Below are positions 46,834 to 54,593 of a DNA stretch of 64,000 nt, in pieces. The notes below the pieces were generated by a model, which saw only the letters and a list, made by a program, of their open reading frames with translations, had not been told where the DNA came from and searched no databases. Within the stretch, counting starts at the first letter, position 1. The number at the start of each line of letters is the position of its first letter. Source of the DNA: Pseudonocardia alaniniphila (GTDB lineage Bacteria; Actinomycetota; Actinomycetes; Mycobacteriales; Pseudonocardiaceae); contig NZ_JAKXMK010000023.1 in NCBI RefSeq assembly GCF_022524485.1, forward strand, positions 62,001 to 126,000, written 5' to 3'. The position numbers and the translations under genes are program-made.

Positions 46834-47094
46834 ATGAACGACTCGATGGTCGTCGTCGTGGTGATCGGGATCATGGCTCTGGTCGCGCTCGGCATCGTGC
46901 TGGGGTCCCACGCAGGAGGCCCGCCCGGCCCGAAGGCCGCCCCACGCCGGCCGGGGGTCGCAGCTCGGAGCGGGCGCCGGACGTCGAGCGGTGACATCTC
47001 CGGCGTCGTCGTGGCCGGCGCCGACGGCGGCACCGGCTGCGGCTGGGGTGGCGGCGACTCGGGCGGCGGTGACGGGGGCGGCGGGAGCTGCTGA
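46834..47094 (+). CDS. Small single-pass membrane protein with Gly/Cys-rich tail
   Basis: An 86-residue protein. The N-terminus has one helix (VVVVVIGIMALVALGIVLG), followed by a basic Pro/Arg-rich linker and the C-terminal tail GCGWGGGDSGGGDGGGGSC, ending on a Cys. The tail (Cys69 and Cys86) closely resembles the tail of the TIGR04222-type protein encoded at 50.5 kb. AAGGGGGTGG precedes ATG 46834 (GTG 46831 also in frame). I recognise no characterised family. A role as a second substrate for the DUF692 enzyme is an inference. Confidence 0.65.
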   Translation: MNDSMVVVVVIGIMALVALGIVLGSHAGGPPGPKAAPRRPGVAARSGRRTSSGDISGVVVAGADGGTGCGWGGGDSGGGDGGGGSC

Positions 47095-47278: not shown

Positions 47279-47536
47279 GTGGATCCGATCGTCGGAATCG
47301 GCCTGACCGTGCTGGTACTCATGGTGCTGCTCCGGGTGGCGACGATGCGCGGCCGCTACAGCGCTCGTGGCCGCTCCGCACGCCGGCGAAGCCCCTACTA
47401 CAACCCGGATTTCCACGCCGGTTCCGACCGCAGCGGGGTCCTCCCCGGCTACGACGGCGGCTGGCACGGAGGGCACCACAGCAGCTGGGGTGGCGGCCAC
47501 CACGGGGGTTCGGGCGGCGGGCACGGGAGCGTCTGA
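47279..47536 (+). CDS. Small single-pass membrane protein with Gly/His-rich tail
   Basis: An 85-residue protein beginning with a hydrophobic segment (PIVGIGLTVLVLMVLLRVATM), then a basic stretch, a Tyr/Pro-containing region (SPYYNPDFHAGSD) and a Gly/His tail (GGWHGGHHSSWGGGHHGGSGGG). GGAGGGGG lies about 8 bp before the GTG at 47279. The His-rich tail might bind metal. No characterised family is recognised. It directly follows the Gly/Cys-tailed gene, after a 184-bp gap, on the same strand. Confidence 0.6.
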   Translation: MDPIVGIGLTVLVLMVLLRVATMRGRYSARGRSARRRSPYYNPDFHAGSDRSGVLPGYDGGWHGGHHSSWGGGHHGGSGGGHGSV

Positions 47537-49083: not shown

Positions 49084-49974
49084 ATGGCGCTGCCCAACGA
49101 CACCGACCCCAAGCTCGCCGAGTACGCCCACCCCGAGCGGCTGGTCACCACCGAGTGGCTCGCGCAGAACCTCGGGAGTGAGGGCCTCGTCGTCGTCGAG
49201 TCCGACGAGGACGTCCTCCTCTACGACACCGGGCACATCCCCGGCGCGGTCAAGGTCGACTGGCACACGGAGCTCAACGACCCCGTCACCCGCGACTACG
49301 TGAACGGCGCGCGGTTCGCCGAGCTCTGCGGCGAACGTGGCATCACGCGCGACACCACCGTCGTGTTCTACGGCGACCGGAACAACTGGTGGGCCACCTA
49401 CGCGCTCTGGGTGTTCTCGCTGTTCGGCCACCCCGACGTGCGCATCCTCGACGGCGGGCGGGCCAAGTGGGTCGCCGAGGGCCGCGAGATGACCACCGAG
49501 GCCGCGAAGCCGGCCCAGGTCGACTACCCGGTGATCGAGCGCGACGACGCCACGATCCGCGCGTTCAAGGACGACGTCCTCGCCCACCTGGGAGGGCCGC
49601 TCGTCGACGTCCGTTCGCCGGGCGAGTACTCCGGTGAGCTGCTGCACATGCCCGACTACCCGCAGGAAGGCGCTGTGCGCGGCGGCCACATCCCGGGAGC
49701 GGCGAGCGTGCCGTGGGCCCGCGCCGCCGCCGAGGATGCCACCTTCAAGTCCCGGAGCGACCTGGAGGCCATCTACCTGCAGGAGCAGGGGCTCTCCGCC
49801 GACGACGACGTCATCGCCTACTGCCGCATCGGCGAGCGCTCCAGCCACACGTGGTTCGTCCTCACGCACCTGCTGGGCTTCGGTCACGTCCGCAACTACG
49901 ACGGCAGCTGGACGGAGTGGGGCAACACCGTGCGCGTGCCGATCGTCCAGGGATCGGAGCGCGGCTCGGTATGA
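49084..49974 (+). CDS. sseA: Thiosulfate sulfurtransferase (rhodanese)
   Basis: A 296-residue two-domain rhodanese. The inactive N-terminal domain has [26 protein letters not shown] and [27 protein letters not shown]. The active C-terminal domain ends with the loop [14 protein letters not shown], whose Cys carries the persulfide. It transfers sulfane sulfur to thiophilic acceptors. The ATG at 49084 has TAGCCT about 10 bp upstream, again suggesting a leaderless message. Its stop overlaps the SufE start; order matches Rv3283-Rv3284. Confidence 0.95.
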
Positions 49975-50414
49975 CGACTCTCCCCCCGCAGCTCGCCGAG
50001 CTGGTCGAGGACTTCTCCGAAGTCGGCCCGAAGGACCGGCTGCAGCTGCTCCTGGAACTGTCCCAGGAGCTGCCGGAGCTTCCTCAGCGCTACGCCGACG
50101 CGGCCGACACGATGGAGCAGGTGCACGAGTGCCAGTCGCCGCTGTTCCTGGCGGTGGAGGTCGAGCCCGGCGGCGACCGCACGGTGCACCTGTTCTTCTC
50201 GGCCCCGCCCGAGGCACCCACCACCCGCGGGTTCGCCTCGATCATGCACACCGGGCTGGACGGCGAACCGGCTGCCGAGGTGCTGGCGGTGCCCGACGAC
50301 TTCTACACGCAGCTCGGGCTCGCCCAGGCTGTGAGCCCGCTGCGGCTGCGCGGGATGGCGGCGATGCTCAGCAGGATCAAGAACCAGGTGCGGATGGCCA
50401 CCGCCGCAGCCTGA
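49971..50414 (+). CDS. SufE-like sulfur acceptor protein
   Basis: A 147-residue SufE-family protein with [31 protein letters not shown] at the N-terminus and the conserved acceptor Cys in [14 protein letters not shown] (about residue 53). SufE proteins accept persulfide sulfur and pass it on. The ATG at 49971 overlaps the sseA stop (ATGA), so donor and acceptor are coupled. The MNIO cassette begins 97 bp later. Confidence 0.9.
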
Positions 50415-50511
50415 CTAGGCAACCTCAAGTCCTGGTCAAGAAGGTTTCCTGCGCCACGTGAGGGTGACAACACTGTGAGGCGTCTCATAAGGACGGCTCA
50501 GGAGGTGTGCG

Positions 50512-51432
50512 ATGACCCTCGAAGCGACAGCGGAGACCTGGGGCATCAGCGGTCCGACGTTCCTGCTGGCCTATCTCGTGCTCGCCGTGGCGGTGTGGAT
50601 CGCCGGCACCCAGACGCGCCGGATGCTGGCCGACCCACGGACCACCGGTCCGACCCCCGATGTCACGACACACCCACACGACACCGCGTACCTCAACGGT
50701 GGCACCGAGCTCGCGGTGTTCTCGGCGCTCAGCTCGATGCACCTGCGCGGCACGATCACGTCCTCGCGTGGCGCCGTCCAGTCCACCGGCCGGCTCGATC
50801 CCGGGTCCGACGGGCTGGAGCGCGCCATCCACTTCACCGCTCGGGGCAAGGTGCGCCGCAGCCGTTTGCCGTTCCACCGCCCCGTGATGACCGCCCTGTC
50901 CGAGATCGAGATGCGGCTGGTCGGCGCCGGTCTGCTGCTGTCGGAGGAGCAGCGGCTCCGCATCCGGCGCGTCGGCGTGTGGATGCTGGCCGTCGCCGTC
51001 CTCGGTCTGGTGCGGGTGCTCGCCGGGGTGGCCGAGGCCAAGCCCGTGGGGTTCCTCGTGGCGGCGCTCATCGCCGTCGCGCTCGTGGCGGTCGTGCAGT
51101 TGGCACGGGCCCCGCGGCGCACTCGCCGCGGCGACCGGATGCTCGAGACGTTGCGCATCGAACACCACCTGCTCTCACCCGAGGTGAAGCCCGACTGGTC
51201 GGTCCACGGACCTGTCGGCGCCGCGCTGGGCGTCGGGATCTTCGGGATGGGCGCGCTGTGGGCGTCCGATCCCGCATTCGCCGACGAGCTCGCCGCCCAG
51301 CGAGTCGCTGCGGGCAGCTCGGGCGGCTCGGGTGGTGACGGAGGCGCCGGGGTCAGCAGCTGCGGTGGCGGCGGTGGCGACAGCGGAGGTGGCGGCGGGG
51401 GCTGCGGCGGAGGCGGAGGCTGCGGTGGCTGA
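50512..51432 (+). CDS. TIGR04222-type membrane protein with Gly/Cys-rich C-terminal tail
   Basis: A 306-residue membrane protein. An N-terminal helix (FLLAYLVLAVAVWIAG), a cytoplasmic or periplasmic region with YLNGGTELAVFSALSSMHLRG, and further hydrophobic segments (VWMLAVAVLGLVRVLAGV, VGFLVAALIAVALVAVVQLA, GAALGVGIFGMGALW) precede a tail of Gly, Ser and Asp with Cys284, Cys298 and Cys304 (SSCGGGGGDSGGGGGGC, GGGGGCGG). The domain matches what I remember of TIGR04222 proteins. GGAGGTGTGCG precedes the ATG. The stop overlaps the DUF692 gene start, so it is the likely substrate or partner of that enzyme. Confidence 0.85.
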   Translation: MTLEATAETWGISGPTFLLAYLVLAVAVWIAGTQTRRMLADPRTTGPTPDVTTHPHDTAYLNGGTELAVFSALSSMHLRGTITSSRGAVQSTGRLDPGSDGLERAIHFTARGKVRRSRLPFHRPVMTALSEIEMRLVGAGLLLSEEQRLRIRRVGVWMLAVAVLGLVRVLAGVAEAKPVGFLVAALIAVALVAVVQLARAPRRTRRGDRMLETLRIEHHLLSPEVKPDWSVHGPVGAALGVGIFGMGALWASDPAFADELAAQRVAAGSSGGSGGDGGAGVSSCGGGGGDSGGGGGGCGGGGGCGG

Positions 51433-52270
51433 GACAGCCGCGCCGCTGCCCGCGGGGGTCGGCATCGGCTGGCGACCGGAGATCGCCGGCTGGGTGACAG
51501 GCCGCATCGCACCGGCGTTCTGCGAGGTCATCGCCGAGTCCATCGCTCCCGCAGCTACGCCCCGGGGGGTGGTGGAGCTGCGGGAGCGAGGGATCCCGGT
51601 CGTGCCGCACGGCGTCCGGCTCTCGCTCGGGAGCACCGAGCCCGTCGAGGACCGCCGGGTGGCGCATCTCGCAGCGTGCGCCGCTGCACTGCAGGCCCCG
51701 CTGGTGAGCGAGCACATCGCCTTCGTACGGGCGGGAGGCCGTGAGGTCGGCCACTTGCTTCCGGTGCCGCGCACCCGCGAGGCGCTCGACGTGCTCGCCG
51801 GAAACATCCGGCGCACGCAGGCCGAGCTCGACGTCCCGCTCGCGCTCGAGCCCATCGCGGCGCTGTTCGACTGGCCCGACGACGAGTACACCGAGCCCGA
51901 CTTCCTCACCGACCTGCTGGAGCGCACCGGCGCGTTGCTCCTGCTCGACGTGGCCAACGTCTACGCCAACGCCGTCAACCGCGGGCAGGACCCGGAAGCC
52001 GTGCTCGACCGGTTCCCGCTGGACCGCGTCGCCTACGTCCACGTGGGTGGTGGCGCGGAGCATCCCGACGACCCCGGCCTCTACCACGACACCCACACCC
52101 ACCCGGTGCCCTCAGCCGTGTTGGGCCTGGTCGAACTGCTCGTCGAACGGACGGCCGCGGCCCCGCCGATCATGCTCGAACGCGACGGCCGCTACCCGGC
52201 CGCCGCCGAGCTGGAAGCCGAGCTCGACGCGATCGCGGTGGCGGCAGGCCACCTGGCGGTGGTGCGGTGA
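51425..52270 (+). CDS. DUF692 multinuclear non-heme iron-dependent oxidase (MNIO) family protein
   Basis: A 281-residue TIM-barrel protein of the MbnB/BufB/TglH superfamily. Likely metal-ligand segments are in order: VGIGWRPE (residues 12-19), PHGVRLSLGS, LVSEHIAFV, LALEPIAALF, LLLDVANVYANA, YVHVGGGAEHPDD, YHDTHTHPVP and MLERDGR. His, Glu and Asp candidates for three irons are therefore kept; the usual GxGLRxxH is GIGWRPE here. MNIOs oxidise cysteine residues in ribosomal peptides. The GTG at 51425 overlaps the membrane-protein stop, and its own stop overlaps the partner's start. Confidence 0.9.
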   Translation: MAETAAPLPAGVGIGWRPEIAGWVTGRIAPAFCEVIAESIAPAATPRGVVELRERGIPVVPHGVRLSLGSTEPVEDRRVAHLAACAAALQAPLVSEHIAFVRAGGREVGHLLPVPRTREALDVLAGNIRRTQAELDVPLALEPIAALFDWPDDEYTEPDFLTDLLERTGALLLLDVANVYANAVNRGQDPEAVLDRFPLDRVAYVHVGGGAEHPDDPGLYHDTHTHPVPSAVLGLVELLVERTAAAPPIMLERDGRYPAAAELEAELDAIAVAAGHLAVVR

Positions 52271-52704
52271 CGCCCGCGTCCAATGGCGCGGCCGAGCGGT
52301 CCGGCCTCGCCGCGCGACAGGCCGAGCTGGTGGCAGCGCTCGTCGCCGGCGGAGCCGTCCCACCCGGCTTCGACGCCACCCGCCTCGACGCCACCCGGCG
52401 AGCCCTGGTGCGCAAACGCGCAGGTGAGGCCGCGAAGGCATGGCCACTGCTGGCCGCATCCTGCGGTGCGGACTGGCCGCGCGCCTTCGCCGCCCATCGC
52501 GCCGGCCACGAGCCGGTCGGAGCGCTGCGTGACGGCTGGGACGTCGCACGGGCTCTGCAGCGGCGCGGTGAGCTGAGTGCCGGGGCCGCCGCCGAGCTGG
52601 CCGAACGTGAGTTCGCCTTCCGTTACGACGGACAGGGCGACCCCCGGCCTCGCCGCGGCGTCCGCTTCCGCCGGTCCGTCGCGAAGCTGCGCGCCCGGCG
52701 TTGA
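52267..52704 (+). CDS. MNIO partner protein (SCO6045 C-terminal-like)
   Basis: A 145-residue helical, Ala/Arg-rich protein with LVAALVAGGAVPPGFDATRLDATRRALVRKRAGEAAKAWPLLA and a C-terminal basic tail (RRGVRFRRSVAKLRARR). MNIO enzymes typically pair with a separate partner that recognises the substrate; from memory this region resembles the C-terminal domain of SCO6045-like DUF692 proteins, to which it can be fused. The GTG overlaps the MNIO stop (GTGA). A substrate-binding function is inferred. Confidence 0.75.
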   Translation: MTPASNGAAERSGLAARQAELVAALVAGGAVPPGFDATRLDATRRALVRKRAGEAAKAWPLLAASCGADWPRAFAAHRAGHEPVGALRDGWDVARALQRRGELSAGAAAELAEREFAFRYDGQGDPRPRRGVRFRRSVAKLRARR

Positions 52705-52823: not shown

Positions 52824-54593
52824 GTGGCGCGCTTGAGCAAGGTTCTTGTCGCGAACCGTGGGGAGATCGCCGTTCGCGTCATCAGGGCCTGCCGGGACGC
52901 CGGACTCGCGAGCGTTGCCGTCTACGCCGACCCCGACCGTGACGCCCCGTTCGTGCGGCTGGCCGACGAGGCGTTCGCCCTCGGAGGCACCACCGCTGCC
53001 GAGTCCTACCTCGTGTTCGACAAGCTGCTCGACGTCGCGAAGCGCTCCGGCGCCGACGCCGTCCACCCGGGTTACGGCTTCCTCAGCGAGAACGCCGACT
53101 TCGCGCAGGCCGTCATCGACGCGGAGCTCACGTGGATCGGCCCCACACCGCAGGCCATCCGCGACCTCGGCGACAAGGTCACCGCACGTCACATCGCCAC
53201 GCGGGCGGGCGCGCCGCTCGTGCCCGGCACCGACGAGCCGGTGAGCGGCGCCGAGGAGGTCGAGGCCTTCGCGGACGAGCACGGCCTCCCCGTCGCGATC
53301 AAGGCCGCGTTCGGAGGTGGCGGCCGGGGCATGAAGGTGGCGCGGGAGAAGAAGGACATCGCCGAGCTCTACGAGTCGGCGGTCCGCGAGGCCGTTGCGG
53401 CGTTCGGCCGGGGCGAGTGCTTCGTCGAGCGCTACCTGGACAAGCCGCGCCACGTCGAGGCCCAGGTGCTGGCCGACACCCACGGCAACGTGATCGTGGT
53501 GGGCACACGCGACTGCTCGTTGCAGCGCCGGTTCCAGAAGCTCGTGGAGGAGGCGCCCGCCCCTTTCCTCAGCGACGAGCAGCGCAGCACGATCCACGAG
53601 GCCGCCAAGGCCATCTGCAAGGAAGCCGGCTACCACGGCGCCGGCACCGTGGAGTTCCTCGTCGGGCAGGACGGGTTGATCTCGTTCCTCGAGGTCAACA
53701 CCCGGCTCCAGGTGGAGCACCCCGTCTCGGAGGAGACGAGCGGGCTCGACCTCGTGCGGGAGCAGTTCCGCATCGCCGAGGGCGAGGTGCTCAACCTGCT
53801 CGAGGACCCGCAGCCGCGCGGGCACTCCATCGAGTTCCGGATCAACGGCGAGGACGCCGGTCGCAACTTCCTGCCCGCACCGGGCACCGTCACGTCGATC
53901 TCCCTGCCTGCCGGGCCTGGGGTGCGGGTCGACGCCGGGGTCGAGTCGGGTTCGGTGATCGGCGGTCAGTTCGACTCGCTGCTGGCCAAGCTCATCGTCA
54001 CGGGCTCGGACCGCGCCCAGGCGCTGGAGCGGTCGCGCCGCGCGCTCGCCGAGTTCCAGGTCGAGGGCATGGCGACCGTGCTGCCCTTCCACCGGCTCGT
54101 CGTGGACGACCCGGCGTTCGCCGCCACCGAGGAGGAGGGCTTCACCGTCCACACCCGGTGGATCGAGACGGAGTGGGACAACACCGTCGCGCCCTTCGAG
54201 GGCGGCGAGGACGCCGAGGAGGACTCGGGACCGCGGCAGACCGTCGTCGTCGAGGTCGGCGGACGGCGGCTGGAGGTCTCGCTGCCCGGTGACCTCGCCA
54301 TCGGCGGAGGCGGAGGCGCCACCAGCAAGGCGGCGCCCCGCAAGCGCGGCGGCGGCCGGGGTGGCGCGAAGGCGTCCGGCGACGCGGTGACGGCGCCCAT
54401 GCAGGGCACGATCATCAAGGTCGCGGTGTCCGACGGCGACTCCGTCTCGGCAGGCGACCTCGTCGTCGTGCTGGAGGCGATGAAGATGGAGAACCCGGTG
54501 CTCGCCCACAAGGACGGCACCATCACCGGCCTCGCCGCCGAGGCCGGCAGCTCGGTGTCGCAGGGCACCGTCATCTGCGAGATCAAGGACTGA
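52824..54593 (+). CDS. accA3: Acyl-CoA carboxylase alpha subunit (biotin carboxylase + BCCP)
   Basis: A 589-residue protein. The biotin carboxylase domain (about 1-450) shows [46 protein letters not shown] (ATP loop), [16 protein letters not shown] and [16 protein letters not shown] linker follows, then a biotinyl domain at the C-terminus with the biotinylation site LEAMKMENP. It carboxylates biotin using bicarbonate and ATP and pairs with AccD5. The GTG at 52824 follows GAGGAGGCAG. Rv3285 synteny holds. Confidence 0.96.

Follow-up and report, generated by a model that had tools for sequence, protein, structure and literature searches.

A three-gene MNIO unit of Pseudonocardia with the cysteine-bearing tail of a TIGR04222 membrane protein as its presumed substrate

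A stretch of 64,000 nucleotides of Pseudonocardia alaniniphila DNA (contig NZ_JAKXMK010000023.1, positions 62,001 to 126,000; "the window" below denotes this whole stretch) was analysed. Three consecutive genes on its forward strand encode a TIGR04222 membrane protein, an MNIO enzyme and a small partner protein, and they are flanked by two genes outside the system. The features are as follows.

49974..50414, + strand: sufE (PF02657, 108.9 bits), the left flank; a housekeeping gene outside the system, used as a landmark of the site.
50512..51432, + strand: TIGR04222 (near_uncomplex) membrane protein of 306 aa (NCBIfam TIGR04222.1, 132.7 bits), the presumed MNIO substrate.
51268..51429, + strand: Gly/Ser/Asp-rich C-terminal tail of this protein, residues 253-306, ending in CGG and holding its only three Cys residues, as read from the sequence.
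51425..52270, + strand: MNIO (DUF692 / MbnB_TglH_ChrH) enzyme of 281 aa with a GTG start (PF05114), which aligns with the solved MNIOs 3BWW, TglH and MbnB.
52267..52704, + strand: partner protein of 145 aa with a GTG start, assigned to PF26136 (SCO6045-like) via its homologues; a candidate PME-type 2 partner.
52824..54593, + strand: biotin carboxylase-type gene (open reading frame), the right flank, outside the system and present at most loci of the genus; presumably accA3-like.

The three genes had been described in the first-pass annotation as joined by overlapping stop and start codons, and the open reading frame listing confirmed overlaps of 8 nt (51425-51432) between the TIGR04222 and MNIO genes and of 4 nt (52267-52270) between the MNIO and partner genes. 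The host genome contains one MNIO gene and one TIGR04222 gene above the cut-off. Because 38 genomes of the genus, this one included, carry this gene set at the same site, it is more than a chance association. The Pseudonocardia unit is real, and units of its kind have been proposed in the literature before.

The TIGR04222 match, which covers residues 21-250 against a curated cut-off of 43 bits, places the first protein in this family. It contains exactly three Cys residues, at positions 284, 298 and 304 as had been noted earlier, all of them inside the tail and encoded by TGC codons at 51361-51363, 51403-51405 and 51421-51423. In the AF2 model (mean pLDDT 83), long helices were predicted at residues 14-40, 145-173 and 179-198, and the pLDDT fell below 50 at tail residues 272-289, 293-296 and 300-302. 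A structure search of the PDB with this model gave no useful match. Conservation of the tail Cys had been named beforehand as a point on which the substrate proposal might fail. Their number and spacing did prove variable in the genus, where tails carry 2 to 5 Cys and 53 of 61 Cys spacings are 4-8. On the other hand, a [GS]-C-G context was retained, with Gly after Cys in 95 of 96 cases and Gly or Ser before Cys in 96 of 96, and the Cys were mostly lost together with the enzyme, as described below.

The PF05114 match of the second protein (259.2 bits against a gathering threshold of 25; E = 4.7e-77) extends over residues 11-271 across the barrel and assigns it to the MNIO superfamily. The closest NCBIfam models were BufB (NF050167, 183.4 bits against a cut-off of 310) and the HvfB type (NF003818, 149.5 bits against a cut-off of 360), and the score was far under the cut-off in each case. 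The MbnB model gave 42.6 bits against a cut-off of 325, and the methanobactin system MbnBC, whose precursor is a short peptide, is unlike the window in this respect. H62, H97, E142, D175, N178, H206, D222, H224 and E252 are identical to the aligned residues of 3BWW and TglH, in keeping with the earlier statement that the enzyme keeps the His/Glu/Asp segments of the metal site; we take these nine residues to be metal ligands. When mapped by motif, N178, D222 and H224 correspond to N175, D242 and H244 of HvfB (PMC13419390). Some MNIOs are described as modifying residues other than Cys (PMC12452194), and the tail Cys might accordingly be imagined as free metal or redox ligands, with the enzyme acting on Gly, Ser or Asp of the tail. 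However, the nearest models are those of HvfB- and BufB-type enzymes, which act on Cys, and the near-invariant Gly after Cys (95 of 96) also argues against this idea, which was judged very improbable.

No Pfam or NCBIfam match was obtained for the partner protein of the window itself; PF26136 is carried by its homologues, among the matches listed. The AF2 model of the partner (pLDDT 88) is nearly all helical, and comparison with the structures of NGO1945, TglI and MbnC gave a single weak match, to MbnC. As a small protein encoded directly after the MNIO gene and lacking a DUF2063 signature, it is a candidate PME-type 2 partner. Profile searches located the partner at 38 of 38 MNIO loci of the genus and directly 3' of the MNIO gene at 86 of 86 MNIO loci of other genera, where none of 50 MNIO-less loci contained it. 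Judged from these genomes, the partner is apparently a constant companion of the MNIO.

The fate of the tail was followed in 62 genomes of the genus, among which a TIGR04222 match was found in 56 and none in six; a near full-length MNIO was present in 40 of the 62, and any MNIO match in 45. Among the loci at the sufE/accA-like site, 38 were MNIO-intact (the window included), 15 had a TIGR04222 gene with the MNIO gene deleted or broken, and three ran off contig ends (L063, L086 and L087, left out). Loci away from this site (L053, L085, L088, L089 and L092) were also left out; the right flank is missing from L081, and additional DNA follows sufE in L060, L064 and L066. All 37 MNIO-intact rows, that is, the 38 loci less L047, a duplicate identical to L046, carried at least two tail Cys; L091, a frameshifted draft, showed two Cys when its second frame was read, and L066, with four copies, was represented by its best copy. 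In contrast, the 14 readable MNIO-lost tails (L075, with a frameshifted tail and one Cys, was left out) comprised ten with no Cys, two with one (L068 and L083) and two with three (L041 and L058), so that fewer than two tail Cys were seen in 12 of 14 MNIO-lost tails and in none of the 37 MNIO-intact rows. The tail ended in CGG at 34 of 35 MNIO-intact single-copy loci, counted without L066, L091 and the window (which also ends in CGG), compared with 2 of 14 MNIO-lost loci. These comparisons indicate that the tail cysteines usually disappear in related genomes when the enzyme is lost.

Parsimony on a 56-row tree built from the flanking genes required nine changes of the MNIO state and seven of the Cys state, suggesting that the MNIO was lost about nine times in the genus. 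A quarter (25%) of the tree length belongs to MNIO-lost branches, and the probability that all seven Cys changes would fall on them was 7e-5 under a loss-only model. A strict independent-pairs test restricted to well-supported (starred) branches gave a weaker result: it left six pairs, of which four or five differed in the same way, none in the opposite way, and one or two showed no difference (median p 0.06). Several loci stand against co-loss. L041 and L058 retain three tail Cys without an intact MNIO. The Cys are gone from L042, although its own genome, G157, has besides this degraded local cassette another, intact MNIO-TIGR04222 cassette elsewhere (L053), which belongs to a different subtype and encodes a Cys tail. 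G150 (L090) has an MNIO fragment on a separate contig.

A single deletion that removed the tail and the MNIO gene together was considered as the cause of this pattern and judged unlikely for most losses, because N-terminal remnants of the MNIO lie behind the TIGR04222 stop codon. Such remnants were found at 11 of the 15 lost loci at E <= 1.2e-4: the best E value was <= 1e-4 in 10 of 15 loci, 1.2e-4 in L090, 4e-4 in L074 and L082, 1e-3 in L067 and 9e-3 in L079. Since a reversed-sequence control gave MNIO E values of 9e-4 to 6e-2, the matches in L067 and L079 are uninformative and those in L074 and L082 weak. For partner remnants the same control reached 7e-6, so that they cannot be judged by E value; larger partner pieces remain in the MNIO-lost loci L041, L062 and L068. 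The dN/dS of the TIGR04222 body was 0.28-0.60 in five MNIO-lost pairs, not all of them independent, versus 0.19-0.47 in 12 MNIO-intact pairs. The body therefore stays under purifying selection after MNIO loss, and the TIGR04222 protein appears to have some role of its own.

The Cys residues could in principle be mutational noise in a GGC/AGC repeat, with the overlap of the genes incidental, given that a single change turns GGC or AGC into TGC. The loss of Cys along with the MNIO, the terminal CGG at 34 of 35 loci and the recurrence of the Cys in other genera speak against noise, and this explanation is hardly credible.

Other elements near the site were also inspected. Across the genus, the interval between sufE and the TIGR04222 gene contains a conserved element like AACCTCAAGTCnnGGTGAAGAACGTTCC, roughly 90 nt before the TIGR04222 start codon (near 50420-50450 in the window). 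This element was rejected as an MNIO-specific operator, being present at 12 of 14 MNIO-lost loci versus 24 of 36 MNIO-intact loci. Two small open reading frames on the + strand, at 46834-47094 and 47279-47536, lie 3-4 kb upstream in the window. Each encodes a single-TM protein with a Gly-rich tail; the first ends in GTGCGWGGGDSGGGDGGGGSC, and the second is His/Gly-rich. They are possibly further tail substrates. Similar short TM-plus-Gly/Cys frames seem to be present in L049, L057, L083 and L054, and the low complexity of these sequences makes their homology uncertain.

The association was followed beyond the genus in 120 genomes of the family and in a class sample of 197 genomes. In the family, at least 56 of 65 MNIO copies lie beside a TIGR04222 gene, and 34 of these 56 linked loci carry two to four TIGR04222 genes. 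Of the 38 other MNIO genomes in the class sample, 5 were without a TIGR04222 protein above the cut-off. The neighbourhood search suggested by the first-pass annotation, in which frequent occurrence of the MNIO without the membrane protein would have counted against the pairing, came out in its favour. A copy with at least two Gly/Ser-flanked Cys was present at 56 of 56 MNIO-linked family loci. Such a tail was found at 13 of 19 unlinked family loci when an MNIO lay elsewhere in the genome, and at 2 of 4 (both in G096) when no MNIO was found. In the class sample, where linkage was assigned from coordinates, 21 of 30 linked loci had a Cys tail; eight of the nine exceptions belong to genus g68 and the ninth, L204, to family f19. 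One copy of less than 150 aa was left out of these Cys-tail counts for family and class. Among class genomes with a TIGR04222 gene, a Cys tail occurred in 24 of 33 with an MNIO versus 1 of 15 without. Cys-tailed copies in genomes with no MNIO found were seen in G096, G104 (= L058) and G255. Tandem arrays were also observed, as in L066 (G172), L108, L131, L144 and others, with up to four TIGR04222 copies and one MNIO; some of the copies lack TM1, and some lack Cys.

The g68 exceptions (L179, L181, L186, L187, L188, L190, L191 and L193) have an MNIO and a partner beside a TIGR04222 protein without Cys. Together with the purifying selection on the body after MNIO loss, these eight loci favour the view that the MNIO modifies a different peptide encoded elsewhere and that the TIGR04222 protein is a carrier, receptor or membrane anchor. 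Four of the eight exception genomes contain an unlinked relative that has no convincing TM and a single Cys in its Gly-rich tail: relatives of the TM-less L221 in three (G299 itself, G309, and G277 with an internal stop), and L209 in G249. In G233, G367, G339 and G329 no possible trans substrate was seen among the matches, of which only weak ones were listed. Reading of the MNIO-strand open reading frames in the gaps of the eight loci revealed no Cys tail and no other Cys-rich Gly/Ser frame, which weighs against a separate peptide there, as do the Cys-bearing copy at 56 of 56 linked family loci and the loss of most tail Cys with the MNIO in the genus. A different peptide as the substrate is therefore considered improbable.

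Comparative genomics thus supports the tail as the substrate through the constant partner, the position of the MNIO beside the TIGR04222 protein, and the loss of tail Cys in most MNIO-lost lineages. The claim that the tail Cys are the presumed substrate, made at first from gene coupling and Cys content, is considerably stronger because of this evidence, and the tail Cys are likely the target of the MNIO.

The side of the membrane on which the tail lies was examined from hydrophobicity and charge. Three clear hydrophobic helices were found in the TIGR04222 protein (about 15-40, 150-173 and 179-198). A fourth segment is of borderline hydrophobicity in the window protein (KD 1.45), and 35 of 119 TM1-bearing family copies pass 1.6 at this segment. 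The mean number of K+R in 77 homologues was 6.9 in 32 residues after TM3 versus 0.05 in the first 14. The 119 TM1-bearing copies averaged 3.35 K+R ahead of TM2, 3.45 following TM3 and 0.60 within the hairpin loop; for the 24 copies in which no TM1 was scored, the corresponding means were 4.62, 4.58 and 0.29. This pattern suggests that the hairpin loop faces outward and that the 110-residue domain and the residues following TM3 face inward. Among the 24 copies, 21 are Cys-tailed and 20 are MNIO-linked, and segment 4 has a median KD of 0.73, with one of 24 above 1.6; start codons were picked by ribosome-site score, so that some of these copies may be misstarted, and two are narrowly under the threshold (1.54 and 1.59). 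The domain and a Cys tail also occur together in relatives lacking a convincing TM, namely L211 (four Cys), L213, which lies beside its own MNIO, and L209 and L221 (one Cys each).

Because of the TM1-less copies, the TM-less relatives and the positive-inside rule, a cytosolic tail is suggested. The simplest reading of these sequences is that the domain and the tail share the cytosol with the enzyme and that the membrane part serves as an anchor that can be dispensed with. A displayed tail was instead the view of Antoine et al. (2025) and of the first-pass annotation. In that reading, TM4 would exist, the enzyme would act before translocation, and the modified tail would be exposed outside. The published topology statement (PMC12452194), the borderline hydrophobicity of segment 4 in the window protein and the acidic, K/R-poor tail agree with such display. 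However, segment 4 is not hydrophobic in the 24 TM1-less copies (median KD 0.73; 21 Cys-tailed), positive charge flanks the TM2-TM3 hairpin on both sides, Cys-tailed relatives without TMs exist, and the enzyme, which is presumably cytosolic, would need to act before translocation. We consider the exported tail unlikely, and the term "membrane-displayed", taken as outside exposure, is disfavoured by these observations. Release of the tail by signal peptidase at the AxA in DPAFA after segment 4 was also rejected, since other genera show a YPD/HPD-type motif there.

The idea of a membrane-protein tail as an MNIO substrate, which had at first seemed novel, was already published in 2025. According to Antoine et al. 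(PMC12452194), TIGR04222 proteins are found mostly in Actinomycetota, often near MNIO genes, and have Cys-rich tails placed in the periplasm, with a subset proposed as MNIO substrates; PME-type 2 partners are predicted for 10% or more, and a partner is seemingly absent from many clusters. The window resembles these clusters in having a TIGR04222 membrane protein with a Cys/Gly/Ser tail near an MNIO, with a candidate PME-type 2 partner as in some of them, and its TIGR04222 gene with C-proximal Cys lies beside the MNIO gene. The present results differ from their account in that no examined MNIO-TIGR04222 locus lacked the partner, a cytosolic position is argued for the tail, and co-loss was tested. 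The loss series in the genus, the apparently constant partner and the questioned topology are what is added beyond print; in the available parts of the literature on TIGR04222, with or without DUF692, neither a co-loss test nor a cytosolic reading was found.

In 2016, a TIGR04222 peptide with a sulfur transferase was described as a bacteriocin cluster (E) of ant-associated Pseudonocardia (PMC5183585). Like the window, cluster E has a TIGR04222 protein with a sulfur transferase and an accessory protein, and it is probably at the same sseA-sufE site; the word DUF692 is absent from the main text of that paper. It was read there as likely antibacterial with a sulfur-transfer modification, whereas here the sulfur genes look like mere flanks. 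A functional link to sseA/sufE was rejected, as these genes were found by tblastn at 0 of 86 MNIO loci outside the genus.

HvfB makes 5-thiooxazoles in oxazolin (PMC13419390), EGKCG repeats are the modified sites (PMC13097082), and FonBC modified only a two-repeat peptide (PMC13419390; PMC13097082). The oxazolin/HvfBC and fontiphorin/FonBC systems resemble the window in combining an MNIO with a partner, and their Cys-Gly targets (EGKCG) become 5-thiooxazoles; the need of FonBC for two repeats fits, by analogy, the minimum of two tail Cys observed here. They differ in having separate repeat-peptide precursors and PME1 (DUF2063) partners, and the window tail has no Lys before Cys. BufB of the bufferin system is the nearest model to the window MNIO (183 bits), yet below its cut-off of 310, and the bufferin precursor is a signal-peptide protein, not a TIGR04222 protein (PMC12452194).

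We propose, with a probability of roughly three in four, that a cytosolic complex of the MNIO and its PF26136 partner oxidises the [GS]-C-G Cys in the disordered tail at the C-terminus of the TIGR04222 protein. In this scheme, the tail would lie on the cytosolic face of the membrane, so that the enzyme could reach it directly; the TIGR04222 body would serve both to recruit the enzyme and to hold the product at the membrane, and the MNIO-partner complex would chemically modify the Cys-Gly sites of the tail. The product would be a 5-thiooxazole-like group formed by a four-electron oxidation, by analogy with oxazolin, fontiphorin and bufferin 1. The mature protein would be a membrane-anchored ligand for a metal, perhaps copper, with no peptide released; a role for copper is a guess from these relatives. 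More tentatively, the system may represent a RiPP-type modification on a cytosolic, non-released tail, in which the MNIO and its PF26136 partner make intracellular, membrane-tethered thiooxazole metal ligands from [GS]-C-G; the helices would be an optional anchor, as soluble versions exist, and the anchored protein would be the final product.

A cytosolic tail would remove the puzzle of how a cytosolic enzyme reaches a tail outside the cell. With the loss series in Pseudonocardia, the published guess can be put to a direct test in ordinary soil bacteria, and the three proteins to be co-expressed follow from the constancy of the partner. Copper-binding groups on small peptides are what MNIO enzymes are known to make; if the TIGR04222 tails are true substrates, the same chemistry would act on integral membrane proteins across actinobacteria.
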